The notes beneath the pieces were generated by a model. It was given only the letters and a program-made list of their open reading frames with translations. It was not told the origin of the DNA and did not search any database. The translations under genes and the position numbers were made by a program. Source: a virus. Taken from it: a stretch of DNA of 25,208 bases. This document shows positions 568 to 23,269 of the stretch, piece by piece (within the stretch, counting starts at the first letter, position 1; every line of letters starts with the position of its first letter). Location of the stretch: IMG/VR virus record IMGVR_UViG_3300048814_000118, positions 1 through 25,208 of that record. One strand, written 5' to 3'.

Positions 568-3500
568 TTAGAACACCCTGGCGGCCCGCCTGTTCGCCGG
601 CAAAGGAGGTACCTGCCAACTAAGCAGCGTCAGATGGTCGGCCGCCCAAAAACAGATAAGTGGTACTCCCGCGTTCGCCGCCGCCAAGTACTGCGCCGCC
701 CACGCGCACGCGCCGTTGAACCACGGGACGAGGTAAGCCGTCGCCGCCTTGGCATAAGTCAGCGTCGCAGTCCCATAAACCATCGCCGCCTTAGCCAGAT
801 CGATGTTCAGATACGAAGTGCCCCAGGAGAGCGCCTCCAACTTCACCCGGTCGATGTCGCCGTTCGGCGCCATGTACTGCGACGGGATGTTGACGTAATT
901 GTTCATTCGGCCGCCCTGCGGGTACGGATACCCCGCGTTCCAATAGACGGTCGGATTGTTGGTATCGAGCGGGAGCAGCCACTCGATCTTGGCTCCTGGG
1001 TACGATGCCTTCACTGCCTGCGCGATGGCGTGCATGTGGGTGTACACCTGGGTGCGCAGGAAGTTCGCGTCGGCGTACGAGTTGATGTTGGGGTTGTCGT
1101 CCTGCGTCCAGAAGCTGGCCAGTGCGCGCCCCAGCGCCGCCACGGCCGCCACCGCCGTGTACGCGTCGTAATAGGCCATGCCGCCGCCGCTCACCGTGCC
1201 CCCCGCCGTGTACGCGGCGTTCCCGTTCGATCCGGTCTCGGTGAAGTGCGTCGAATTAGTGACCACGATAGGCCACGTTCCATCCGCCGCCGTCGCGCCT
1301 CCCACCGCAGCGACTATCGCGTTCTGGCCCGTAGCGAGCCCGTGTGCCGCCGCCGTGCCTATCGAGATGGGCGCGGTCCAACTCGCATACCCGATGGCCT
1401 CGTTCATCAGCCGCGAGAAGAACCACCAACCGACCTCGCCCAACTGAAGCCAGGGCACGAGGCCGGCCGCCGCCAGAATCCCGGCCGCTTGCAGATAGCA
1501 CTTTTCGAGGTAAGCGGTGACCGTCGCCGGGTTGAAGCAGCATTGCGCGGTCTGAAGATCGATCAGCGTCGTGGCGCCCGGCGCGACGGTGAACGCGGTC
1601 CCCGAAACGAGTGTCGTCAACTGGTAGTGGTTGGCGTCCGTGACGGTCACCGACCAGACTGCGCCGTTCGATCCTTGCGCGATGTGGACGGTGTTTCCGG
1701 TAACGTACCCGTGCCCGATCTGCTCGATAGTCTGCGGGCCGGACCCGCTCACTCCGTCCACCACCCCCGCGCCCCACGACCCGAAACCGGTGGCGGTCAG
1801 AACCACCGCACCGTTCGCGAACCGCTGGCACCACGCGCTGGCCGACGTAGCCGCGTCCGGCGGCGCGAGTAGCTCCTGGGAGAACGCCACGGTCATGGTC
1901 TGGCCGGCCGCTTTCACCAGCGTCGCGAGGTCGGTCAGGTAATCCTTGAACGCGCGGTTGAGCGGAGAGGCCTGCGACGCATCGACCGCCCACGTGCCTT
2001 CGTTCCCGCCCGCGAGGGAGGTCGAACCGATGTCGCCCGCCACCGCTACCGCGATCCCCGCGCCCGCGCTCACCGACAGGTCCAGACTGAACCCGTTGAT
2101 GGGGCTGAGGACGGTGATGGTGAATTGGCCGGCGGTCGCGGTCGGAGCTGCGCAGGTGCCGACGAACGTCGCGTTGATTGCGTTCACGACGCGCTGTGCA
2201 AGCGTCGCCAGGGTGTCGGCCGGATACGCCACCGCACCAAGCACCGTGCCGCCAAGCGAACCGCCGCCCGAGGGATTCCCACCCTTGGTTGTCGCCCCGG
2301 AGATCGCCGTTCCGCTGTTTGGGTACGTGCCGCCGACCGTCATCCACACCGTGTCCGCGCCAACCCCGAACGAGTTCCCCGGATTGATGGTCCCAGAGAG
2401 AGTCACCGTCGCCTGATGAAAGTTGCCGCCACTGCGCGCGCGCTTCAACGCGAAAAAGACGCCGACGTAGAAGTCGATGTCGCCGTTCAGGCCGGCCTGG
2501 TTGAGCGTCCACAGGAGGCGCGCGGGCGCGATCTGATAGGTCTGCCCGGTGTCGTAGTCGCAGGCGCACCCTACCACGGAGTAGGAAGTGGCCGGCAACG
2601 CCGGATCTGCCAGCACCGCGGCCTGCAGGAAATCGAAGATGCACGTGCCGCTCGCTACCGTAAGCGCCACGGTATGGGAGCCCGCCGCGACGCCGGATGC
2701 AATTAGACGCCGCCCCGCCGTTGGCGCGCCGGACGACTGCGTGGAATAGGCGCTCACCGGGATCGCAGCGCCGCCGTCCACCAACGCGCTGATCGCGCCG
2801 CCGACCGTCGAGAGCGCGGTGCCCCAGTACAGGTTGTGCGCGAACTGGCAGGAGTACTTCACCGTAACCGTGTCGCCGGCGTGAGCGCTGTCCCAAGCAA
2901 AGCCGCCCACATACCAGCCCGCTACCTGATTCCAACCGCTACCCGCCCGCGCCGCCCACGAGTCGCCCGAAGCAATGGTCACCGAGCCGGGCCCCGCGAT
3001 CTTCAGCGGAGTGACGCCGCCCGGATCGCCGACCGTCCAGTTGGCCAGGACCGCCGACCACTCCTGCGGCGCGAACGCCACAAGCGCCGGGTTGACCGTC
3101 CCGGCGTCGTAAGTGAGAGGAGGTGCGAAGGTAAGCCATAGCTGCCGGACGGTGGCGAGGCCCAGCGCGGAGAAGTCCATGTGGACGTGGATGGACGTCG
3201 GGTCGGTCCCGCCCGTAAGCTTCGATGCGCCAGCCGGCGTGAGATAGCAGGTCGTGGTCTTGTGCATCTCCAGCAGTTCGATTCCGTTGCCGTCCACGCC
3301 CTCCGTCCGCGATTGGACCGTGAAGGTGCTGCCGGTCTGCGTCGCCTGCAAGACCGTGTTCGCGTTGATCTGCGCCACCAGTTGGCCGGCCACCCATGCA
3401 GTGACGCTCGTGATTTCGAGAAGAAGCACCCCGGTCGCGTTGCCATCGGAAGCAGAGCATGTGACCTCTGCGCCCGTGTTCAATTTCGGGGTGAGCGTCA

Positions 3501-4203
3501 CATTGTTCCCCGCCGCCACCGCCGTGGCGTTCGCGTCCGGTGCCACGTTGATGAGGAGCGCCAGCGCGGTCGCAATATCGCCCGAGCCATCAGTCGCAAG
3601 CTGCACGTGGGTGTAAGTCTGCGTACCGATGGTGATCGTGTGGCTATACCCGGTGCCAGCGGAATTCCAGAATGCAAAGACGATGGATGACACAGCCCCG
3701 GCCCAAACCGGCACCACCACATCGAAAAGCACGTTGCCCAGGTATACCAGTTGCACGCGGTCGTACGCCGCCGGAGTGCCGTTGACCGTGTAAGTACAAC
3801 TGGCCTGCGCGCCGCCCGTGGTCGCCGTAACCGGCAGCGCCACCGTGCCGGGCGTTTCTGTCACGACGCCGCCGGCGACGCTGCGCGCGATGTAACTCAG
3901 CGAGCCCCACGCCACCGAAGGGTACTTCGAGCTCGTCGGATTCTGGCAGCCCGTCCAAGCCAGATCGAAGTCCAACGTCACGCCGGCCAGGGAGAAGTCG
4001 GGTAGGTACCTCGAGGTATACAAATGCCCATAAACATCGTCCGCATCGAACAGGACTGCCACCGCGAAATCCGCTTGGTCCGACCAGCAGCCCGAGAGCG
4101 TGAAGCCGGCGCCCGACGCGTTGTGCAGCGACGCCGCAGCTCCGCGCCGGTCGAATCCGCGCAGGTACATCGAGCGATGCGGTTGTAGTTTGGCAATCGA
4201 CAT
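568..4203 (-). CDS. Large tail-tip protein with interrupted glycoside-hydrolase-like barrel
   Basis: This is a 1211-residue protein starting at an ATG 9 bases after the stop of the tip/hub gene. It probably sits at the tail tip and may bind or cut host surface sugars. Residues 1-185 are beta-rich. Residues about 188-330 and 598-745 hold Gly/Thr-rich modules with a recurring 'A(L)xxxIN...A...G...T' pattern. From about 740 a TIM-barrel-like domain begins (AFKDYLTDLATLVKAAGQ), continues at 890-935 with LQLGEVGWWFF (Glu923 is a candidate acid) and again at 1008-1211 (MAYYDAYTAVAAVAALGRAL, then KIEWLLPLD). The barrel is broken by two beta modules with HGYVTG at 831 and HGLATG at 954. Such barrels occur in phage tail proteins; whether this one is catalytic cannot be seen. 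The C-terminus RRAARVF is short and basic. The tail assignment is firm by context, the enzyme activity is inference. Confidence 0.8.
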   Translation of the reverse strand: MSIAKLQPHRSMYLRGFDRRGAAASLHNASGAGFTLSGCWSDQADFAVAVLFDADDVYGHLYTSRYLPDFSLAGVTLDFDLAWTGCQNPTSSKYPSVAWGSLSYIARSVAGGVVTETPGTVALPVTATTGGAQASCTYTVNGTPAAYDRVQLVYLGNVLFDVVVPVWAGAVSSIVFAFWNSAGTGYSHTITIGTQTYTHVQLATDGSGDIATALALLINVAPDANATAVAAGNNVTLTPKLNTGAEVTCSASDGNATGVLLLEITSVTAWVAGQLVAQINANTVLQATQTGSTFTVQSRTEGVDGNGIELLEMHKTTTCYLTPAGASKLTGGTDPTSIHVHMDFSALGLATVRQLWLTFAPPLTYDAGTVNPALVAFAPQEWSAVLANWTVGDPGGVTPLKIAGPGSVTIASGDSWAARAGSGWNQVAGWYVGGFAWDSAHAGDTVTVKYSCQFAHNLYWGTALSTVGGAISALVDGGAAIPVSAYSTQSSGAPTAGRRLIASGVAAGSHTVALTVASGTCIFDFLQAAVLADPALPATSYSVVGCACDYDTGQTYQIAPARLLWTLNQAGLNGDIDFYVGVFFALKRARSGGNFHQATVTLSGTINPGNSFGVGADTVWMTVGGTYPNSGTAISGATTKGGNPSGGGSLGGTVLGAVAYPADTLATLAQRVVNAINATFVGTCAAPTATAGQFTITVLSPINGFSLDLSVSAGAGIAVAVAGDIGSTSLAGGNEGTWAVDASQASPLNRAFKDYLTDLATLVKAAGQTMTVAFSQELLAPPDAATSASAWCQRFANGAVVLTATGFGSWGAGVVDGVSGSGPQTIEQIGHGYVTGNTVHIAQGSNGAVWSVTVTDANHYQLTTLVSGTAFTVAPGATTLIDLQTAQCCFNPATVTAYLEKCYLQAAGILAAAGLVPWLQLGEVGWWFFSRLMNEAIGYASWTAPISIGTAAAHGLATGQNAIVAAVGGATAADGTWPIVVTNSTHFTETGSNGNAAYTAGGTVSGGGMAYYDAYTAVAAVAALGRALASFWTQDDNPNINSYADANFLRTQVYTHMHAIAQAVKASYPGAKIEWLLPLDTNNPTVYWNAGYPYPQGGRMNNYVNIPSQYMAPNGDIDRVKLEALSWGTSYLNIDLAKAAMVYGTATLTYAKAATAYLVPWFNGACAWAAQYLAAANAGVPLICFWAADHLTLLSWQVPPLPANRRAARVF

Positions 4204-4212
4204 GGTGCGGGC

Positions 4213-7200
4213 CTACATGTAAATGAACACCGAGAGGTTCGCGCCCGGCACCGTGGTTCCGACAGCAGCGATATCGAGCGTGATGCTGGCGCCGCCGGCG
4301 AGCGCGCCGGAAGCGGTCAACTGCGCGCTGGTGGCCTGCACCGACAGGTTGCCGGCGGCAATGGTGATGGTCATCCAAAGCACGCCGCCCACGTTGATGT
4401 TGACCGTCAGTCCCGCGCCGGTCGGTGCGGTGCCCACCAACGCCACGACCTCGTTGGGAGTACGTGTAGCGTTCAACTGCAACGGGGGCGCCTGATTGCT
4501 GCCAATCGCCAGTGTGCCGGCCACCTGCAGCGTCGCGCCCGGAGACGCGTTGGTACCGGCCGCCCCATAGATCCAGTCCTCGCGGACGGGCGCGTCGCCG
4601 TCCGGAGACTCGTTGCCGTTCACATCCACCGTAAACCCTCCGATCAGCATCGGTTGCTTTATGAAGTTCGCGGTCGGAACCGAGAGCGCAACCGCAGTCA
4701 ACGGGCTGGCGTTGTCGATGCTTGTGGAATCCGCCTGGAAGCCCCACGTCGGGCCTTCGACAATCCACACCGACGTTTCGTCCATCGTAAGCGCCGGTTG
4801 GAAGGTCAAGCCCGTTGCGGTGTTCGCCGTGATGGTGCTCGGCGGCTGGCCGCGCCCGGTGTTGGCGATGATGCGGATCAGGTTCCCAATCTCGACACCG
4901 ACTCCGGCAACGACGCCCATCCCGCCGTAAGCGTTCAGCGAGTTCTTGCAGCCGTTGTCGTTGACCGTGTTCACCGAGGGCGGCATGCTGTTCAGGTTGT
5001 CTGCCTTGAATCGGATTGCGAATGCGTCGCCCACCAGCACGATCCCGGTGGGGTCGCGGTCGAGCGTAAGCGTTCCCGTCGCCGGCACGTGGTTCGTGAT
5101 ATTGAAGCTCGCGTACGGCGTGCTAGCGTTCGGCCTCCCGATGATCGAAAGCACGCGTCCGGCAGCGTTGAACGGCGTGGCCGAGGTATCGACCATGTCA
5201 TTCGACACAATCGTATTCGTGGAGACACTGGCCACGGACGCGCCGATCACGCCCGAGTGGCGCAGAAGCTTCGACTTAATGCGCACCTTTGCGACGTACG
5301 GCGAAGGCATCGCCCAGGTCGACCGCGTCAACGGGCCGGAAAACGTGATGGAGGAAGGGCTGTAGGTCGTGCCGTTCCCGGTTGGCGTGAGCGCGCCCGT
5401 CAGTTGCTCGCAGATCAGGTCGTCCTGGCTGGCGATGAATAGAACGAAGGAAGCCAGCCCGGTGACCGCCGGCCACGTGATGTTCGCGAGCGTAAACGTA
5501 TCGGTGCCCGACACCGAGGTGCCGAGGACCAGGATGCTCGACGGCACAGAGGGGAGCCCGCTCCCGTCGACGGCGCAGATGGCCACGTACAACGTCACCA
5601 TCGCCGGCAGCGACCCGCCCGTCGATGCCTGCCCCACCAGCCCGACTCCCGGTGCGCCCGCGCCTGTGGCGCTGAACTCGTTCACCGGCAACTTCCCGGT
5701 GATCACCAAGTAGGCTTGCTGGCTGCCGTCCTGCAGGGGCACGTACACCTGATCCGAGTCGAACGTCCACTCGCCAGGGAAGAGCGCGTCGCCCGCGTTG
5801 GCCTGCACTTGGTACGGAGCCCATACCGGTCCGGCCGGAATCGCGTAGAAGATCGGTGACGGCGGCGCAGGCGCTACGTCCACCGGCTTGGGACCGACGT
5901 CGAGGTCGTACATCGACGCGGTAACGGTCTGCCCTTCCAGTTGCACCGACCAGTCTTTCTTGAGGCTCCACTTCTGAACCCGGAAACACATCGTGATGAC
6001 GTGGAAGACCAGGCCGGTCCCGCTGGGCGGCGCGGGGTTGGTGGTGATCGTGGAACCGTTGGCGGCCACCGCAGTGATCGTCACCTGGATACCGCCGATC
6101 AGAATCGCCTTGTTGACGAATTCGGTGTCGCCATCCGCCGTGCCGGCGTACGTCCACACGTCGCCGCTTACCCAGGTCGCGGTCGCGCCGGTCACGTTGC
6201 AGGTCCCCCGCGCACCGGGGATGTCCGGGTGCGTCATCGAGACGACTTGGCCGACCTCGTTGTTAAGACCCAGGAGCGTCGTTTGCCAGGATGCGCTGCG
6301 GGCATTCCGCCACTCCATCGGCGTGACGCCCCCGCACTCTTCGCGCGTACGCGTCGCCGCGATCCGTAGGGCCTGACTCAGCGTCGAAATGCCCACCGAA
6401 TGCATCTGGCTCGTGAGCGGAGAGCCGGCGCGGCCATAGTAGGCCGCATGGCTCTTGTCGACGTAATCGGCGGTGTTGGTCTGGTACTGATACGCGACGT
6501 CGGCGTAGGAAATAATCAGGTGCTCGAAGGCCGCCACAATCGGCGTCAACCGCAGGCTTTGGAACAGAACGCTACCGATGGTGTAAGCGTCCACCGCACT
6601 CGCGTTGATGCGGCAGCCCAATTTCAGCTTGCCGAATTCCCACGCGTAGAAGCCAAGGCAGCAGTTCAGAACCTCGGTGAGCCAGTCGCGGAAAGGCTTC
6701 TGGCTGCTGATCGATCCTTGAAACTGAAACTGAATTTCATTCCCGGTGCCGAGGATGGCCGGCACTTGGGCGGCGGCGATCTCCGCGGTGCCGCTGCCGT
6801 CGCCCACGATCAGCGAGGAGAGAACGAACGCCGCCAACTGCTGCGCCGACACACTCGGGTACGACATCGAGTCGCCGGGCGTCGCGCTGCTGGTGATGGG
6901 GTTGAGGTAGTAAGCGAACCAGTCGTATTTACCATCGCCCGTAAAGGTCATGCTGCCGACCGTCAACGTCATGCCGAGAGTCATCCGGTCCTCGACGGAT
7001 GCGATCAGCGCCTTCTCTGCGTTGCCGGTCGGATTGGCACCGGCGATCACCACGCACGCCTGCACGTACGCCTGCCAGACGGTCGTGAAGTTGGCCTCGA
7101 AGATAGTTCGATTCGCAGCAGTCTGGTATCGAGGCGCGAGGCTCTGCCAGTTGTAAAGATTCTGCTGCAACAGGACCGCGGCCTGGTTCGCTGCGTTGCT

Positions 7201-9231
7201 CATGGGCACGCTGTACGCGTTGCCCGTGAACGCGCTCCCGATCCATGCGATCAGGCACGCCCACATGCCAATGGGATTTCCGGTGAACGCCACGATCTTG
7301 AAGTCGCCGATGGTGGAACCGCTGAAGCTGAAGAACGAACTGGGCGGAAGCGTGATCGTGATCGTCTGCGTGTTGAGTGGCGCCTCGAGGCCGGCGGTAA
7401 GCCCCATGGCGCGCAGGAGCATGTTCACGCAGATCCAAAACGGGTTGATGAGGCCGGAGACAACCGACCGGTTGCCGTTCTGATCCCACACGAAGCCGGA
7501 CAGCCCGTAGTCGAGCGGAATCGTCATCTGGTGCTGGTCGGGCGTCGAAGGCTGAATGGTGCTCGACTTCGTGATGCGCAACTCGCAGAAGGCCACGCCG
7601 GCCGCATAGTTATTGGGCTCCCAGGTCTGCGGCGACCCCTGGCCGAGCGAGAAATAATCGGTAGACGGATTGGCCGGGTCATTGCCCAAGACCTGCCGGA
7701 GTCCCATTCCCGGCTGGTTCTTTGTGATCACCAGATTGCCGTTGACCTGAAAGCCCTGCCACGTATAGCCGTCGACCATCGGCGCCACCACGTACCGGTA
7801 GCCGTCCGCGTTCGCGACGATCTGCGACGGCGTAAACCCGCCCAGCGGTCCCGCGCCGAGGATTCCCAGCGAGTCCGCGTACGTGGACTCGTCGCGGTAC
7901 GCGACCATCAGAGCGTTGGCCATGAATGCGTAGAGCGCGTTACCGCCCGAGTTGCACCAAATTTCTGGCAGCGCCAGGCCCCAGATGTATTCCGTGATGA
8001 TCGAGGTGGCGGTGACCTTGTTGCGCCCGAAGCCCAGGAAGCCGGTGGAGTCGTCCTTGATAATCACGCCCTGCGGGTCGGCCTGCTGGCCGCCGAAGTA
8101 CGGAGACATGCCGTGCACCTGACAGCCGTTCGCCGACTCCAGGTAGAAGTCGCAACTGTTCGGATCGCCGCCCGCCGCAGTAACCGCCGCCGAGTTCGCG
8201 CCCTTGGTCGCCCACAGGCAGTAGACGCCGTCGTTGTAAGTCTTCCAGCACTGGCGGCTGGCCTGCCGCTCCGGGTACTGGTTCATGATCTGGAAGAAGC
8301 CGTCGGAGCAGACCACCGGGAAGTTCGGTGTGCCGTCGCTCGTAAAGTTCTGGATGACGCCCTTCCAGATTTGAATAAGGATACCGGAATTGACGTTGAA
8401 CGCGCAGAAGTCGATCTCCGCGTATTTGAGATCGGTGTCGTTGGAGAGGTCCGTCATCGTGCGGTCGGCGTTGCCGAAGGTGAATCGCACGCTGTCGGAG
8501 GAGCCCTTGATGTCCTGGGAGATCAGCGTGTCGGAGCCGGGCTCGCCGATCCCGGTGATACGCGGCAGGTAGAGTTGCGAACTGCCCGCCCAGCCGAGCG
8601 CGGCGGCCACCGCGCCGGCAGCGCCATCGGTGAGCGTCACGCGCCGGTCCGAAAGCCAGATGTCCGGCACGGTGGCCTCTTGCACGCGGATGTGGATGAG
8701 CGGAACGATTTCCTGGACTTCGGAAAGCAGCGCCGCAGAAAGCGCGGTCGAGGGGAATCGCAGGCAGGGCGCGGCTACCACCGCGTAAGTCGGTGCGGCG
8801 GTCGGATCGACGACCTCGACCAGATTAAATCCAGTCTGGCACGCGTTGCGCAGGTAGTTGAAGGAGACCGGCGTCTCCTCGAAGGTCACGAGGACCGACG
8901 TGGTGGTTCCACCGGGGTTGGGGACGTTGTAAGTGAACGCCTCCCATGGGCCCTGCATCGACTCCCAAAACGATCTGAGTTCGCGCGCCTCCGTCCAGCC
9001 CAGGTTGCCGCGCGAGAAGCGGAACTTACGAGGCCCGATCCCGCTATAGAAGCGCTGCTCCTGCTTCGCGTCCATACTGCCGAAGCGATGGACGATCACC
9101 GGGCGCTCGACGGAGAACCCGTAGGAAGACAGTTCCGTCGTAAGAGGAAAGACCTGCGTGCCCGAGAGGCCGGCGCCGCCCGTCGAGAGCACCGTCGTTG
9201 GTACGGAAATCCGTCCGATTAGATCTGCCAT
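4213..9231 (-). CDS. Tail tip/hub protein, apparent fusion of gpM-, gpL- and gpJ-like parts
   Basis: This is a 1672-residue protein. The chosen start is the ATG at 9231, which overlaps the upstream stop as TGATG; a 15-residue upstream extension would lie inside the neighbour. Residues 1-142 resemble the preceding gpM-like protein, ending in the same pattern (ACQTGFNLVEV versus CRTNVQGLQLVEV). Residues about 180-400 look like a DUF2163/gpL-type tail protein with a four-cysteine cluster (C328, C338, C360, C370); in lambda gpL such cysteines bind an iron-sulfur cluster. Residues about 400-1110 resemble a tail hub (gpJ-like), including FRDWLTEVLNCCLGFYAW near 847 and VQKWSLKKDWSVQLEGQTV near 1085, with an inserted beta module at 1009-1080. 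Residues 1200-1320 look fibronectin-III-like. The C-terminus (ASITLDIAAVGTTVPGANLS) is a beta end-domain seen in other tail proteins. The role as hub is inferred from order and size. Confidence 0.85.
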   Translation of the reverse strand: MADLIGRISVPTTVLSTGGAGLSGTQVFPLTTELSSYGFSVERPVIVHRFGSMDAKQEQRFYSGIGPRKFRFSRGNLGWTEARELRSFWESMQGPWEAFTYNVPNPGGTTTSVLVTFEETPVSFNYLRNACQTGFNLVEVVDPTAAPTYAVVAAPCLRFPSTALSAALLSEVQEIVPLIHIRVQEATVPDIWLSDRRVTLTDGAAGAVAAALGWAGSSQLYLPRITGIGEPGSDTLISQDIKGSSDSVRFTFGNADRTMTDLSNDTDLKYAEIDFCAFNVNSGILIQIWKGVIQNFTSDGTPNFPVVCSDGFFQIMNQYPERQASRQCWKTYNDGVYCLWATKGANSAAVTAAGGDPNSCDFYLESANGCQVHGMSPYFGGQQADPQGVIIKDDSTGFLGFGRNKVTATSIITEYIWGLALPEIWCNSGGNALYAFMANALMVAYRDESTYADSLGILGAGPLGGFTPSQIVANADGYRYVVAPMVDGYTWQGFQVNGNLVITKNQPGMGLRQVLGNDPANPSTDYFSLGQGSPQTWEPNNYAAGVAFCELRITKSSTIQPSTPDQHQMTIPLDYGLSGFVWDQNGNRSVVSGLINPFWICVNMLLRAMGLTAGLEAPLNTQTITITLPPSSFFSFSGSTIGDFKIVAFTGNPIGMWACLIAWIGSAFTGNAYSVPMSNAANQAAVLLQQNLYNWQSLAPRYQTAANRTIFEANFTTVWQAYVQACVVIAGANPTGNAEKALIASVEDRMTLGMTLTVGSMTFTGDGKYDWFAYYLNPITSSATPGDSMSYPSVSAQQLAAFVLSSLIVGDGSGTAEIAAAQVPAILGTGNEIQFQFQGSISSQKPFRDWLTEVLNCCLGFYAWEFGKLKLGCRINASAVDAYTIGSVLFQSLRLTPIVAAFEHLIISYADVAYQYQTNTADYVDKSHAAYYGRAGSPLTSQMHSVGISTLSQALRIAATRTREECGGVTPMEWRNARSASWQTTLLGLNNEVGQVVSMTHPDIPGARGTCNVTGATATWVSGDVWTYAGTADGDTEFVNKAILIGGIQVTITAVAANGSTITTNPAPPSGTGLVFHVITMCFRVQKWSLKKDWSVQLEGQTVTASMYDLDVGPKPVDVAPAPPSPIFYAIPAGPVWAPYQVQANAGDALFPGEWTFDSDQVYVPLQDGSQQAYLVITGKLPVNEFSATGAGAPGVGLVGQASTGGSLPAMVTLYVAICAVDGSGLPSVPSSILVLGTSVSGTDTFTLANITWPAVTGLASFVLFIASQDDLICEQLTGALTPTGNGTTYSPSSITFSGPLTRSTWAMPSPYVAKVRIKSKLLRHSGVIGASVASVSTNTIVSNDMVDTSATPFNAAGRVLSIIGRPNASTPYASFNITNHVPATGTLTLDRDPTGIVLVGDAFAIRFKADNLNSMPPSVNTVNDNGCKNSLNAYGGMGVVAGVGVEIGNLIRIIANTGRGQPPSTITANTATGLTFQPALTMDETSVWIVEGPTWGFQADSTSIDNASPLTAVALSVPTANFIKQPMLIGGFTVDVNGNESPDGDAPVREDWIYGAAGTNASPGATLQVAGTLAIGSNQAPPLQLNATRTPNEVVALVGTAPTGAGLTVNINVGGVLWMTITIAAGNLSVQATSAQLTASGALAGGASITLDIAAVGTTVPGANLSVFIYM

Positions 9232-9647
9232 CACGCCACCTCGACCAGTTGCAGGCCCTGGACATTGGTCCGGCACAGGTCGCTCAACTGCGACCAGTTG
9301 CCGCGAACCACGACCGTCACGCGGCCTTGGGTGTTGTTGCCGGTAGCGTCGTAGTTACTACCGATCTGCTGGCCGGCGAGCACGTCGAACGGGTTGTAGA
9401 AAAGAAACGGCGTCATACCGAAGTTCTGCGAAGTGAGGAAGGTGTAGAGCGTGGCGAGTTTCGTCGCGTTGAGACGCATGTTCGGCCGGAAGGTCCGGCG
9501 CGAAGTCTGGGCCAGTTGCGCCCGCTGGATCGTGCCGTCGCGATACTGGTTCTGGAGCTGCGCGTACTCGCGCGACTCGGTGAACGCGGTGCACAGCGCA
9601 AATGGCATCACGCCGTTCGGGACGGCGGCGAGGATATTACCCGGCAT
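9231..9647 (-). CDS. Minor tail protein at the distal tail end (gpM/DUF2460-like)
   Basis: This is a 138-residue protein. It contains a pattern typical of distal tail proteins: a helix (LNATKLATLYTFLTSQ, about 59-74), then PFLFYNPFDV and a closing beta strand GLQLVEVA. Lambda gpM and DUF2460 proteins are of similar size and occupy the same place after the tape measure, where they help cap the tube before the tip attaches. Its stop overlaps the start of the hub gene (TGATG), so the two are probably translationally coupled. It starts 9 bases after the stop of the zinc-knuckle gene. The N-terminal domain of the hub looks like a diverged copy of this protein. Family assignment is from visible pattern and position, not from a search. 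Confidence 0.7.
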   Translation of the reverse strand: MPGNILAAVPNGVMPFALCTAFTESREYAQLQNQYRDGTIQRAQLAQTSRRTFRPNMRLNATKLATLYTFLTSQNFGMTPFLFYNPFDVLAGQQIGSNYDATGNNTQGRVTVVVRGNWSQLSDLCRTNVQGLQLVEVA

Positions 9648-18653: not shown

Positions 18654-19013
18654 TTAGAACGCCGGGTTCAAACGCACCCGCACCGTCGGATCTCCGGCGG
18701 CGCCACCGGGAGCGTTGGCCCCACTGGGCTGCATCAGGACTGCCACGCCGATCTTCTTATCGGTGTTGATGGAGGTAGCCACGTGATTGACGTTGTCCCA
18801 ATACACGTAATCGCCGGTCGCGAACGTGCTGGTGTCCTTGGCCAGGTCGAACACGCCTTCCGTTACGATCTCCATGTTGTCGTTCACCGCCTGCGTGTTG
18901 ACGGCGACCCCGAAAAGGTAGCCCGTGCCGATCACCTCGACACCGCCGCCCCCGAGTACGGCGTAGGGTGCGATTACCGTAATCGTCTTGCCCTGCTGGA
19001 CATAGTTGTTCAT
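18654..19013 (-). CDS. Capsid decoration/cement protein (DUF2190-like)
   Basis: This is a 119-residue protein starting at ATG 19013 after AGGAGACGAATCG. The N-terminus (NNYVQQGKTITVIAPYAV) and the strands that follow (GGVEVIGTGYLFGVAV, then EGVFDLAKD, then GDYVYWDNVNHVAT, then IGVAVLMQPSGAN, then PTVRVRLNPAF) are the normal DUF2190 pattern. These proteins sit on the outside of the capsid and stabilise it after expansion. It comes directly after the capsid gene, as usual, separated by 78 bases. Perfect GC hairpins lie on both sides of this gene, suggesting separate control of its message. High copy number is expected because the capsid needs hundreds of copies. Confidence 0.88.
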   Translation of the reverse strand: MNNYVQQGKTITVIAPYAVLGGGGVEVIGTGYLFGVAVNTQAVNDNMEIVTEGVFDLAKDTSTFATGDYVYWDNVNHVATSINTDKKIGVAVLMQPSGANAPGGAAGDPTVRVRLNPAF

Positions 19014-19091: not shown

Positions 19092-20588
19092 CTACGCGCC
19101 GGCGTTTTTCTGCATGCCGCGATAGTCGATGGCCGCAGCGCCGAAGTCCATGCGCGCCTTGATCTCGATGCCGTCGACCTCGAAGCCCTGCTTGGTCTCG
19201 ATGTAAACGCCCTGCTGCCCCTCGAGGTAGCAGTACTCCACGGTGTCCACCTGCGCCGGATCCGCGAACAGATACCACGCGGTCGAACTGGCGGCGTCCA
19301 GACGCGGCTCGACGATAGGCACCAAGCTGCGAACCCACTGCGGCACAACCTTGGTCTCGTCGGACGAGGCGATGTCAATCGGGAACACGACCTGGAGCAT
19401 GTACGTTTCGAGCGCCGTCGGTACCGCGATGAATCGCGGGACCAGATTCAAAGGAGTGCCCTGCGGCCCCTTCTGCCGGCGCAGTTCTCCACGCCCGAGG
19501 CCCAAGGCGCCCAGCGCCTGGGCGCCAGCCACGGTCGGATCGATGCTGCTGGGGGTTCCAGTTAGCAGGTTGTTGTGGCCGGCAGCGAACAGCGCGGTGG
19601 CCGCAACGTCGCCCGCGTACTTCGCCACCGGGTTATTGATGATGATGCCCCAAACGATGTCCGACTCCAGTCGCGCCGCAGCCACGCCCAGCAGCGCCGG
19701 GACGCGGGTGAAGGCCTGGAGGTCGTCGTTGATGATGACCTTGCGGGTCAGGGCCACAATCTCACCGAAGGTGTTCAGCACATAGGCGATGTTGCTATCG
19801 GTGAGTTGCGCCCGGTGATACTCGCCCTTCTCATTCAACTGCTGCAGCGACGGAGCATCGGACAGCATCACGCGATTAATGGGCTTGAAGTCCTGCGCCG
19901 TCATCTGACGGCTGAAGGGCTCGAACGTGCGCGGATAAGACTCGTATCCCTGGCGCAGGGTCTTATTGGCGACGTTCGCGAGGATCGCGGGGAAGTCCGT
20001 GGTGGCCTGCGATCCTCCCTCGAAGAATTCCGCATCGCGCGCCGGAGCGCGAAGGGCGACGTCCGCGATCCGTGTGGTATCCCAACCGCGCGGGTCGATC
20101 CCGCGGAGTTGCAGATACTCTTTGGCCATGTCGATGAGTTTGAAGTTGCGATACTCCCGCGCCATCTCCGACGCGTTGGTCTGCTGCTTCTCTCCACAAC
20201 CGGCCAGGAACTCGCCGGTCGTCGGATGCCGGTTCAGGAAGAACCGGGTGTCGGCGCGCAGCAGCAGAGCGGACTGCATGCAGCCCAACCGCTTCTGTAT
20301 CGCGTCGGTTCCGCCGCCCGTCCCCGGACCGTCGTTAACGATCTTGCGCTTCGCAGCATCCGCGGCCAGCTTGTTGAGGATCTGCGTCCCCGCATCGGCC
20401 GCCGAGACGCCCTTCGCCACGAGCTCGGTGACGAAGGCTCTTTCGACGCCTTGAATGGTGCCCAGCGTTTCGATATCGCTGACCCGTTTACGTTCTTGAG
20501 TGACCGCCTCTTCGCGCGCGGCGGCCAACGCTTGTTCGTTCACAACTCGGGCATCCACAGCCGTGCCCTGCTGCGTTGTTTCAGTCAT
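19092..20588 (-). CDS. Free scaffold plus major capsid protein from an internal start
   Basis: The in-frame ATG at 20588 (Met311 of the fusion) would give a 498-residue protein beginning TETTQQGTAVDARVVNEQAL after Met, that is, the helical scaffold-like segment plus the whole capsid domain. It is preceded by AAAAGGAGA with 9 bases between GGAG and ATG, as good as any start signal in the window. The fusion alone would put one protease on every capsid subunit, which is hard to fit in a prohead, so a second product in excess is sensible. Lambda makes its scaffold Nu3 from an internal start in protease gene C in the same manner. Direct proof of use is lacking. Confidence 0.55.
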   Translation of the reverse strand: MTETTQQGTAVDARVVNEQALAAAREEAVTQERKRVSDIETLGTIQGVERAFVTELVAKGVSAADAGTQILNKLAADAAKRKIVNDGPGTGGGTDAIQKRLGCMQSALLLRADTRFFLNRHPTTGEFLAGCGEKQQTNASEMAREYRNFKLIDMAKEYLQLRGIDPRGWDTTRIADVALRAPARDAEFFEGGSQATTDFPAILANVANKTLRQGYESYPRTFEPFSRQMTAQDFKPINRVMLSDAPSLQQLNEKGEYHRAQLTDSNIAYVLNTFGEIVALTRKVIINDDLQAFTRVPALLGVAAARLESDIVWGIIINNPVAKYAGDVAATALFAAGHNNLLTGTPSSIDPTVAGAQALGALGLGRGELRRQKGPQGTPLNLVPRFIAVPTALETYMLQVVFPIDIASSDETKVVPQWVRSLVPIVEPRLDAASSTAWYLFADPAQVDTVEYCYLEGQQGVYIETKQGFEVDGIEIKARMDFGAAAIDYRGMQKNAGA

Positions 20589-21518
20589 TGCAGGTTTCTC
20601 CTTTTGCGGGCTGATTGCCCGAAGTACATTCATCACAGCGGCGTCCGGCGCGCCGAAAATTGCTATCTCCCCGTTCGGTTGCGCGCTCAGAAAACATGTA
20701 TTGAAATCCGCCGGCACCGTACACGGGGAAATCTCGAACGGTTCCCAATCGGTCGCCTTGAACATCCCAACCTCCTGGTTGTTCAGGTACGGAGCTTTTC
20801 CCTCCGGCATGCCCTCCGTCTGCATGTCGGTTTTCTCGCGCTTGTAAATGAACGTGCCGAAGCTGAGGTTCTGGAGGATGCCGGTGCTGGCCTTGCGGAA
20901 CATCTCCGCGCCGTCCGGGTCGCCCAGGTCGAATTTAAGCGTCGCCATTCCCTTCGGGCCGTTCGGCCACGCGCGCTGGACGACGCCGACCTGGGCTCGC
21001 GTGCCGACCTTGCCGGCCATGAGGGACTTGAAATCGTCGCCCGAGAAATGCGTATCGAAGACCGGTGCGCCGCTATTCAGCCGGTCCATGCGGCAGCCTT
21101 CCATCGCGAGGCGCAGCATATAGGGCTCGCCGGTAGATCGGTCGATCCTCGGGACCATCGCGCCGCTATACCAAACGACATCGATGGTGCCGTCATCGGC
21201 GTTCGCAGTGCTGGGCACCACCTGCGCGTCGGCGGCGAAGACCTCGGAGACGCCTGTCACCGCCACCCTCGCGGCGGCCGGCGGCGCGACGGTCGTCGAT
21301 TCGACCTCCGGCGTTCCCTTGGCGTCGCCCGAGGCCGCAGCATCGCCGAGAGCGGTTACCTCCCGATGGACCTCCGTCTCGGTGGTAGTGGTGATCGCGG
21401 TGGTCTTCTTGGTTTCAGTGGTCGTCGTTGTTGCCGGCGGGTCCTGCGCAGCCGCCGCGATGACCGCTTGGCCGGGCTGCTCCTCCAGACCGGTGATTAC
21501 ATCCGGGTTGCCCTTCAT
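19092..21518 (-). CDS. Prohead protease fused to major capsid protein
   Basis: This is an 808-residue protein; protease-capsid fusions are a known arrangement. Residues 1-105 are low-complexity (Thr/Ala/Glu-rich at 24-50). Residues about 110-280 are a U35/S78-type prohead protease: the catalytic His is likely H157 (GAPVFDTH), the Ser is S219 in LQNLSFGTF, and FEISPCTVPADFN (261-273) matches the 'EvSlV..PAd' end of the domain. Residues 311-400 are charged and helical (AAREEAVTQERKRVSDIETL), a scaffold-like delta domain. Residues about 410-808 are the HK97-type capsid part (FPAILANVANKTLRQGYESY, then LNLVPRFIAVPTALETY). The start at 21518 follows GAGGAGAGGG, 29 bases after the portal stop. An internal start at 20588 could yield capsid protein alone. 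The protease would cleave itself and the scaffold region during maturation. Confidence 0.9.
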   Translation of the reverse strand: MKGNPDVITGLEEQPGQAVIAAAAQDPPATTTTTETKKTTAITTTTETEVHREVTALGDAAASGDAKGTPEVESTTVAPPAAARVAVTGVSEVFAADAQVVPSTANADDGTIDVVWYSGAMVPRIDRSTGEPYMLRLAMEGCRMDRLNSGAPVFDTHFSGDDFKSLMAGKVGTRAQVGVVQRAWPNGPKGMATLKFDLGDPDGAEMFRKASTGILQNLSFGTFIYKREKTDMQTEGMPEGKAPYLNNQEVGMFKATDWEPFEISPCTVPADFNTCFLSAQPNGEIAIFGAPDAAVMNVLRAISPQKEKPAMTETTQQGTAVDARVVNEQALAAAREEAVTQERKRVSDIETLGTIQGVERAFVTELVAKGVSAADAGTQILNKLAADAAKRKIVNDGPGTGGGTDAIQKRLGCMQSALLLRADTRFFLNRHPTTGEFLAGCGEKQQTNASEMAREYRNFKLIDMAKEYLQLRGIDPRGWDTTRIADVALRAPARDAEFFEGGSQATTDFPAILANVANKTLRQGYESYPRTFEPFSRQMTAQDFKPINRVMLSDAPSLQQLNEKGEYHRAQLTDSNIAYVLNTFGEIVALTRKVIINDDLQAFTRVPALLGVAAARLESDIVWGIIINNPVAKYAGDVAATALFAAGHNNLLTGTPSSIDPTVAGAQALGALGLGRGELRRQKGPQGTPLNLVPRFIAVPTALETYMLQVVFPIDIASSDETKVVPQWVRSLVPIVEPRLDAASSTAWYLFADPAQVDTVEYCYLEGQQGVYIETKQGFEVDGIEIKARMDFGAAAIDYRGMQKNAGA
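20586..20605 (-). promoter_or_regulatory. Internal ribosome-binding site and start codon in the protease-capsid fusion
   Basis: On the minus strand AAAAGGAGAAACCTGCA is followed directly by ATG, in frame with the fusion. A near-perfect Shine-Dalgarno sequence at this spacing inside a coding frame is unlikely by chance, and it falls exactly at the boundary between protease and scaffold/capsid parts. Confidence 0.65.
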
Positions 21519-21547
21519 CCTTGTCCCTCTCCTCTTTGCGGTTCGAT

Positions 21548-23269
21548 TTACCCCCGGTAGATCCGGGTGGTCGATTGCCAGTTGGTTGTGACGCGCGAGA
21601 TTCCCGCCACCAAGAGCTCTTTGACCATCGCGAGGTCCTCGTCGGATAGCTCGCAGATCCCCAAGCCCTGACTGCCGCTGCCGCCGCCTGACGGCTTGCT
21701 GGTCGGCGTGCGCTCTTCGGTATTGGCCGGTTGCTCCTGGCCACGCAAGGTCACGTTACGTGGATCGACGTCGAGGATGATCTCGTATTTGTCCACCAGC
21801 TTGTTGAACAAAGCGATCTGCTGGAGTTGCGTCGTCGGATCGTATCCGTTCTCCAGCACCGCCTCGAACCACGGCTTCCGGCCCATGCGGACGTCCTTCA
21901 ATACCGACTCGGCGTCCTTCACCGGATCGACCGACTCGAACCGGGGCGAAGTCCATTGAACCTGCTTCAGGTTGATCTTCGGATTGTTCACCGCCGCCAG
22001 GGGGATTTTCCCCAGCAGGACGAGCGTGTCGATGAACCGCCGCCACACCGGCATGCAGAACAACGGCATCAACGTAAGCCACCGGTAGTTTTCAATCGTG
22101 TTCCGGAAGCCCAGCATCCCGCCGCGCCAGGAGGAATAGTTCACCTGCGACATGTCGCCGGTGCCGAGTTCGTAGGGCAGCCCGATACCGGCCATGATCC
22201 CCTGCAACTCGGTCATCTTATATTCGCGGTAACCGCCGGCCGGAGGCGGGTTGTTGAATTTGATGTCCTGGCCCGGCTTCAGGTACTCGACCATGCCGGG
22301 CTGGAAGCTTTCGACAGGATGCCCGCTGAACGGATCTGTCCCGGCAAAACCCACCGGATCGCCGTCGACGCCTTCCGGCTGCGTCACAAACGCAGCCACG
22401 CACGCCTCGATCTTTTTCCGGACACGCTCGGCGTCGCAGTAGTCGTCCAGGTCCCGCAGCGCCATCATCACCGGCGCCAGCCACGGCACGCCACGCACTT
22501 GGCCGGGTCGGAGCACGCGATAGACGTGCATGATCTGGTCTGCCGGCACGGGCTGGCTGACGATACCGCCGCGCGGGTTGAGGATCAGCACACCACCCGG
22601 GTGATAGCTGAAGAGCCAGTACGCCACGCGATGGCCGTCCTCGTCGAACTGGACGCCTTCCATTACGTGGCCGTTGACCAGCCCCATCGTTCGAGCTTGA
22701 TCCAGGAAATCGGCTTCGAGCATCTGAAGTTGCAGCGGTACACGAAGGCCGGAGTCCACGAGGCGCGGCCGGAACCGCACGATAGCTTCGCCGCTCTCTC
22801 CCATGGTCCGGATCGCGAGCGTCTGCATGCCATAGAAGTCGAGACGCTGCGGCTCGTCGCATTGCTCCGAGAAGTATGGCCACTCGGCGTCGATGATCGC
22901 GTCGATAGCGGTGGCGCCGGTCTTGGCCATCGGGACGATGCCGGTCCCCACCACGTTGCCGGCCAACTCCTCGATGGCGCGCGCCGCGTATGGGTTGTTC
23001 CGGATGAGCTCCCGGCTGCGGTTGCGCAGCCAGATAAGCGCGCCCATCAACTCGACGTTGGCGTCGGCAGACGAGGCATACCATCCGTGCACGCGCCGTC
23101 CGGCGGTGGCGCCTTCGTAGGCGAACCGCTGCGCGTGCCGCTGGCGGTAGCCGTCGACCAATTCGCCCACGGTGCGCTGGATGGTGTAGCGGCCGGAGGC
23201 GGGAGACTGCGCGTTCCAGTCGCGGCGCAGCAGCGGGATAGGACGTCGTACCTGGAGATCAGTAGTCAT
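21548..23269 (-). CDS. Portal protein, lambda family
   Basis: This is a 573-residue protein that would form the twelve-part ring through which DNA enters and leaves the head. Typical lambda-portal segments are present in order: SRELIRNNPYAARAIEELAG (about 85-104) with NVVGTG following, the strand MLEADFLDQARTMG, the conserved RGVPWLAPVMMALRDLDDY, then FQPGMVEYLKPGQDIKFNNP and the signature MSQVNYSSWRGGMLGFRNTI. Length fits the family (lambda gpB 533). The ATG at 23269 overlaps the end of the upstream gene by 11 bases. The C-terminal 40 residues are poorly structured with a Gly/Ser run. The gene is complete and looks intact. Confidence 0.95.
   Translation of the reverse strand: MTTDLQVRRPIPLLRRDWNAQSPASGRYTIQRTVGELVDGYRQRHAQRFAYEGATAGRRVHGWYASSADANVELMGALIWLRNRSRELIRNNPYAARAIEELAGNVVGTGIVPMAKTGATAIDAIIDAEWPYFSEQCDEPQRLDFYGMQTLAIRTMGESGEAIVRFRPRLVDSGLRVPLQLQMLEADFLDQARTMGLVNGHVMEGVQFDEDGHRVAYWLFSYHPGGVLILNPRGGIVSQPVPADQIMHVYRVLRPGQVRGVPWLAPVMMALRDLDDYCDAERVRKKIEACVAAFVTQPEGVDGDPVGFAGTDPFSGHPVESFQPGMVEYLKPGQDIKFNNPPPAGGYREYKMTELQGIMAGIGLPYELGTGDMSQVNYSSWRGGMLGFRNTIENYRWLTLMPLFCMPVWRRFIDTLVLLGKIPLAAVNNPKINLKQVQWTSPRFESVDPVKDAESVLKDVRMGRKPWFEAVLENGYDPTTQLQQIALFNKLVDKYEIILDVDPRNVTLRGQEQPANTEERTPTSKPSGGGSGSQGLGICELSDEDLAMVKELLVAGISRVTTNWQSTTRIYRG

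Follow-up and report, generated by a model that had tools for sequence, protein, structure and literature searches.

A conserved nested start signal at the protease–scaffold join of phage prohead protease–capsid fusion genes

Our analyses indicate that a viral gene encoding a fused prohead protease, scaffold-like region and HK97-fold capsid protein is very probably a nested capsid gene from which both the full fusion and a separate scaffold–capsid protein of 498 residues are made. Initiation at codon 1 would yield the 808-residue protease–scaffold–capsid fusion, and ribosomes binding AAAAGGAG at the join would start at Met311 and produce the 498-residue scaffold–capsid protein in the same frame. 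The short form would be the main building block of the shell and the long form a minority, which would bring the protease into the prohead through the scaffold–capsid part common to both; the protease would then trim the scaffold. Sequence comparisons establish a putative start signal, its position in a linker and its family-wide conservation at the nucleotide level; synthesis of the short protein, the ratio of the two products and their co-assembly are what we infer.

The gene lies at 19092..21518 on the minus strand of the window, by which we mean the whole stretch of DNA analyzed, a viral record 25,208 bases long. Its open frame of 808 amino acids belongs to NF045541 (“prohead protease/major capsid protein fusion protein”), matching positions 2 to 634 of the 634-position model with 534.7 bits against a cut-off of 525, and it also matches PHROG 4523 (“major head and protease protein”). 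It falls outside NF045540, the family of ClpP-type fusions (Fels-1, F10 and Gifsy-2 type), to which it scored 296.6 bits against a cut-off of 475, with the match beginning only at residue 299. A PDB sequence search with P0001 returned no match at E 1. The gene is flanked on the same strand by an upstream portal protein gene (21548..23269; TIGR01539, PF05136) and a downstream head decoration protein gene (18654..19013; phrog_122, E 9.7e-18). Because its closest cellular matches are acidobacterial contigs (Bryobacterales and Solibacteraceae, 62–76% identity), the host of the virus is probably an acidobacterium. Elsewhere in the window, two very large genes (1211 and 1687 residues), neither matching a PHROG with a known function, occupy positions 571–9276 (minus strand), and a 661-codon open frame at 19575–21560 (plus strand) faces the capsid gene; the latter frame is probably a shadow of GC-rich coding sequence.

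In an AlphaFold2 model of the 808-residue fusion (mean pLDDT 68), a prohead protease domain spans about residues 103–279 (20682..21212, minus strand), as judged from the model, its fold likeness and the residues His157 and Ser219. These two residues, singled out in the first-pass annotation, proved to be invariant in 11 distant homologues and also in 30 homologues. By VIA-align, the modeled protease (residues 91–280) resembles T4 gp21 (5jbl_A) with a Z of 10.2 (127 residues, rmsd 3.3) and herpesvirus proteases with a Z of up to 8.7; Foldseek alone gave a weak result with the protease domain model (E 0.03), and PF04586 (Peptidase_S78) was matched in 11 of 20 homologous segments, the segment of the gene under study not being among those matched. 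The predicted fold and the conserved Ser/His place this part among the Peptidase S78/herpes-type prohead proteases. Residues 280–328 (20535..20681, minus strand) are modeled as a disordered linker (pLDDT <50) that contains the join and has many indels among relatives. Met311 sits in this linker, between the protease domain and a helical region at residues 326–391, after which comes the C-terminal HK97-fold part. The latter assignment is given by PF25209, which covers residues 488–805 (E 3.2e-50), and Foldseek relates the capsid part to HK97-fold shells (encapsulin and phage capsids) with an E of 1.7e-8.

A Shine-Dalgarno sequence and in-frame ATG at the protease–scaffold join had been proposed at first pass, and both are present on the minus strand: AAAAGGAG at 20605–20598 and, after a 9-nt spacer, the ATG of Met311 at 20588–20586, in frame with the 808-residue gene. 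The Shine-Dalgarno and spacer together form the stretch AAAAGGAGAAACCTGCA (20605–20589, minus strand). The frame and length of the proposed 498-residue product beside the 808-residue fusion also hold, the predicted scaffold–capsid protein corresponding to 19092..20588 (minus strand). Shine-Dalgarno strength was expressed as the energy of the anti-SD duplex, which is −8.7 kcal/mol for Met311 and −10.9 kcal/mol for Met252, the strongest internal match in the fusion gene. Because 4 of the 47 in-frame ATG/GTG/TTG codons of the gene reach −6 kcal/mol or better, the Met311 signal, judged from this one gene, could be chance and is not decisive. Part of the internal Shine-Dalgarno is paired in an 85-nt mRNA fold, which weighs against initiation there. 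The exact sequence AAAGGAGAAACCTG occurs once in the 25,208-base window, and reuse of the element elsewhere in the window was rejected, there being no further exact copy.

Related genes were aligned on one profile, and start codons were positioned relative to the conserved protease Ser264. The join window ran from +20 to +60 codons after this position, a choice made after the first phage set had been inspected, and an ATG was counted at an anti-SD energy of −5.5 kcal/mol or better. The 243 genes counted are fusions with both domains, whose relatedness makes the counts nonindependent; 104 frames without the anchor or capsid part, 80 of which are ClpP-type, were left out, and Sc-Yong805-like genes with joins beyond +60 were left uncounted. 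One ClpP-type gene (L318) got through the filter and is included in the counts, and four broken genes (L121, L136, L159 and L075) were retained on their longer frame. One seed of the first relative search overlapped the join; all 81 genes have another seed, 36 of them without that one, and the genome and Rhodobacter-type searches had no seed at the join.

An ATG with a good Shine-Dalgarno was present at the join in 228 of the 243 related fusion genes. Among representatives with <80% identity, the join signal was found in 54 of 63, compared to 93 of 844 equally sized control windows taken from these genes, and among those with <50% identity in 17 of 18, compared to 27 of 235 control windows. 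When the genes were divided into 20-codon bins, the two join bins reached 38% and 51%, and the next highest outside the gene’s own start region reached 16%. In 12 of 18 genes, the annotated start has a weaker Shine-Dalgarno than the internal one. In each of the 17 annotated phage stretches examined, the fusion gene is recorded as a single CDS. The 15 misses comprise five genes with a GTG behind a Shine-Dalgarno at −8.4 or better, six whose ATG lies at −5.0 to −5.4, and four weaker cases (L113, L144, L220 and L234). A relaxed count (ATG or GTG, −5.0) is passed by 239 of the 243 genes, with the control rate rising to 948/3306. The first-pass annotation had named, as evidence that would speak against its proposal, homologous fusions in which Shine-Dalgarno and methionine are both missing; none appeared: the codon at the join is ATG in 238 of the 243 genes and GTG, with a strong Shine-Dalgarno, in the remaining 5. 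Two acidobacterial relatives (L105 and L125) keep AAGGAGAAACCT and the hairpin described below, with GTG in place of ATG at the join. Such a change from Met to Val via GTG preserves a putative start codon, not the amino acid.

A fresh sample of 30 genes (23 representatives) from one bacterial order was collected by the family profile. With the preset window, the signal was found in 13 of the 23 representatives, compared to 15 of 292 control windows. In nine others the linker is shorter and the start falls at +17 to +19, behind a Shine-Dalgarno at −5.9 or better (one with GTG), and these nine count only when the window is widened to +17, as decided after the result; 1 of the 23, L442, has no signal at the join. 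Within the same order, 55 of 397 genomes match above the family cut-off, and 187 of 397 match at E 0.001, many of these matches being weak or partial. Taken across relatives, the predicted join signal is far beyond chance.

The alternative that survives best, which we nevertheless regard as improbable, is that only the full fusion is translated and the protease cleaves itself at the linker, the stretch RAISPxKEKPAM being a cleavage site and not a start signal. Prohead proteases cut in linkers, and this stretch is conserved as protein in the clade of the gene under study. Against this reading, the conservation sits at silent sites. With a null in which synonymous codons were shuffled using each gene’s own usage, the mean anti-SD energy at the join of 63 genes was −7.50 observed versus −5.61 expected (Wilcoxon p 1.9e-9), a comparison slightly biased toward the observed value by picking the best ATG per join; 738 control ATGs showed no such excess (−2.36 observed versus −2.60 null). 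Of 606 windows compared across 43 clade representatives, the one covering the ten codons ahead of the start shows the strongest constraint at silent sites. In these genes, AAG GAG AAA CCT is fixed wherever the amino acid is kept, Shine-Dalgarno positions −14 to −9 are identical in 43/43, and the alanine codon beside the start varies. The join peptide, moreover, varies between families (for example KGKTM, REENAM, PEGQM, GEGM and QEHTM) while the Shine-Dalgarno and start remain, and five genes have GTG in place of ATG. Given the variable peptides and constrained silent sites, we rejected a conserved cleavage peptide as the sole explanation. Rather, the putative nested start is maintained at the nucleotide level.

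A further alternative, to which we assign even less weight, is that the signal is a fossil capsid ribosome-binding site left from a recent fusion and no longer used. Separate capsid genes do occur, as exemplified by a natural split gene (L163, 2898–5115) in a Mesorhizobium albiziae prophage, which has an in-frame TAA between the protease and capsid parts and, 72 nt past the TAA, an ATG at 3658 behind CAGGAG in the capsid frame. Because the TAA separates the two parts, the only route to the capsid protein of L163 is its own predicted start; this single case, which may be a decaying prophage, also speaks for the nested start. A fossil, however, would decay, whereas 17 of the 18 families at <50% identity keep the signal, and in the close clade it lies in the most constrained silent-site stretch. 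Seven other fusions (L102, L170, L254, L121, L136, L159 and L075) are interrupted by frame changes, by N runs or, in L136, by an in-frame stop; they may be errors or decaying prophages and, as possible errors, were set aside as split-gene evidence. Initiation mainly at Met252 (CCAGGAGGTTGGG-ATG), which would yield a product lengthened by the end of the protease domain and has the strongest internal match (−10.9 kcal/mol) in its favor, is the least credible alternative of all and was rejected, because its Shine-Dalgarno codons vary and are thus without nucleotide constraint among the 43 representatives (Glu is GAG in 18 and GAA in 24, and the Gly codon varies), and an ATG is missing there in 55 of 63 representatives.

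Directly upstream of the Shine-Dalgarno of the favored Met311 start is a short hairpin, CGGGC-AATCA-GCCCG (20607..20621, minus strand), identified by its conservation in the clade. Of 94 genes from the clade and its acidobacterial relatives, 81 of them close relatives, 93 carry the pattern GGGC-N3..6-GCCC, compared to 32 of 7281 background windows. The stem is constant, the loop differs in length and sequence, and codon contexts differ; visual inspection of local folds reveals a small hairpin in 42 of 43 relatives. The stem never varies among the 43 relatives, which show no compensatory changes. Consensus folding of the hairpin was discarded, as the 85-nt fold favors long-range pairing instead. 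Speculatively, the hairpin might keep the signal clear of upstream pairing or bind a regulator.

The ClpP-type fusions have a Shine-Dalgarno and ATG at +20 to +40 in 20 of 28 representatives, but a different bin in these genes scores as high as 12 of 28. The peptide at this signal is conserved, and its Glu codon is GAG in 15/15 cases versus 603/1167 gene-wide. This similar candidate signal is supporting only and is weaker proof than that in the main family. We tentatively entertain, as a possible but somewhat doubtful combination, that three-in-one capsid genes generally have a nested start freeing the scaffold–capsid protein, in both the S78/herpes-like and the ClpP-like group, whose protease folds are unrelated, and that the hairpin upstream of the Shine-Dalgarno in the acidobacterial clade helps set the protease-to-capsid ratio.

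In phage lambda, an in-frame start lies inside the protease gene C behind a Shine-Dalgarno; its product, Nu3, is scaffold only, and the capsid gene is separate. Shaw and Murialdo are said to have described these nested genes in 1980. The herpesvirus UL26/UL26.5 genes also encode a nested in-frame protease-free product that is scaffold only; the UL26 protease has a related fold, but the short form there comes from a separate transcript, whereas an internal ribosome-binding site is proposed here. The Gifsy-2 gene is reportedly called a “tripartite capsid gene” in the title of a 2010 paper by Effantin, and its fusion protease is ClpP-like, unlike the S78/herpes-type one here. The gene under study resembles the nested genes in having a putative in-frame internal start with a Shine-Dalgarno after the protease part, but, unlike in lambda and Mu, its nested product would not be scaffold only, since the frame continues through the capsid domain to 19092. 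The parallel with lambda C/Nu3 drawn at first pass stands with respect to the nested start and was amended in that the closest relatives are the three-in-one genes of Gifsy-2 and MD8.

In the NF045541 and NF045540 families, Gifsy-2 and MD8, a single gene likewise combines a protease, a scaffold-like region and an HK97-fold capsid protein. According to the accessible part of its description, gp5 of Pseudomonas phage MD8 is a three-in-one capsid gene whose protease is ClpP-like, in contrast to the S78/herpes type here (PMC8508860). The term “start codon” is absent from that text (PMC8508860), and the family records and MD8, as far as the available portions go, present a single product, whereas two are proposed here. 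In the same partial source, HK97 gp4/gp5 are a protease and a capsid protein that carries its own scaffold (delta) domain, encoded side by side by two separate genes (PMC8508860) and not by one fusion gene as here. The excerpts available also mention fused protease–capsid genes in phages of Rhodobacter and Paracoccus (PMC8601537, PMC6536676). A nested start is known in the Mu protease/scaffold gene and was proposed for Mu-like Pseudomonas phages such as PaMx73, where, in the accessible sections of the source, an in-frame internal start behind a Shine-Dalgarno gives a protease-free product, as here; that product is scaffold only with a separate capsid gene, whereas here it would comprise scaffold and capsid (PMC4378225). 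Fusion genes (NF045541; Gifsy-2, MD8) and nested starts in protease–scaffold genes (lambda, Mu) were therefore already known. A literature search for internal starts in protease–capsid fusions, whose coverage did not extend to the main Gifsy-2 paper, returned protease–scaffold cases only, and within that coverage we found no published description of a family-wide nested start whose product comprises scaffold and capsid.

Fused protease–capsid genes pose a problem, as a shell of hundreds of subunits would contain as many proteases. The conserved nested start offers a testable answer, namely a shell that would be built without a protease on every subunit. It also implies that this widespread family has been annotated without what is probably its main capsid protein.
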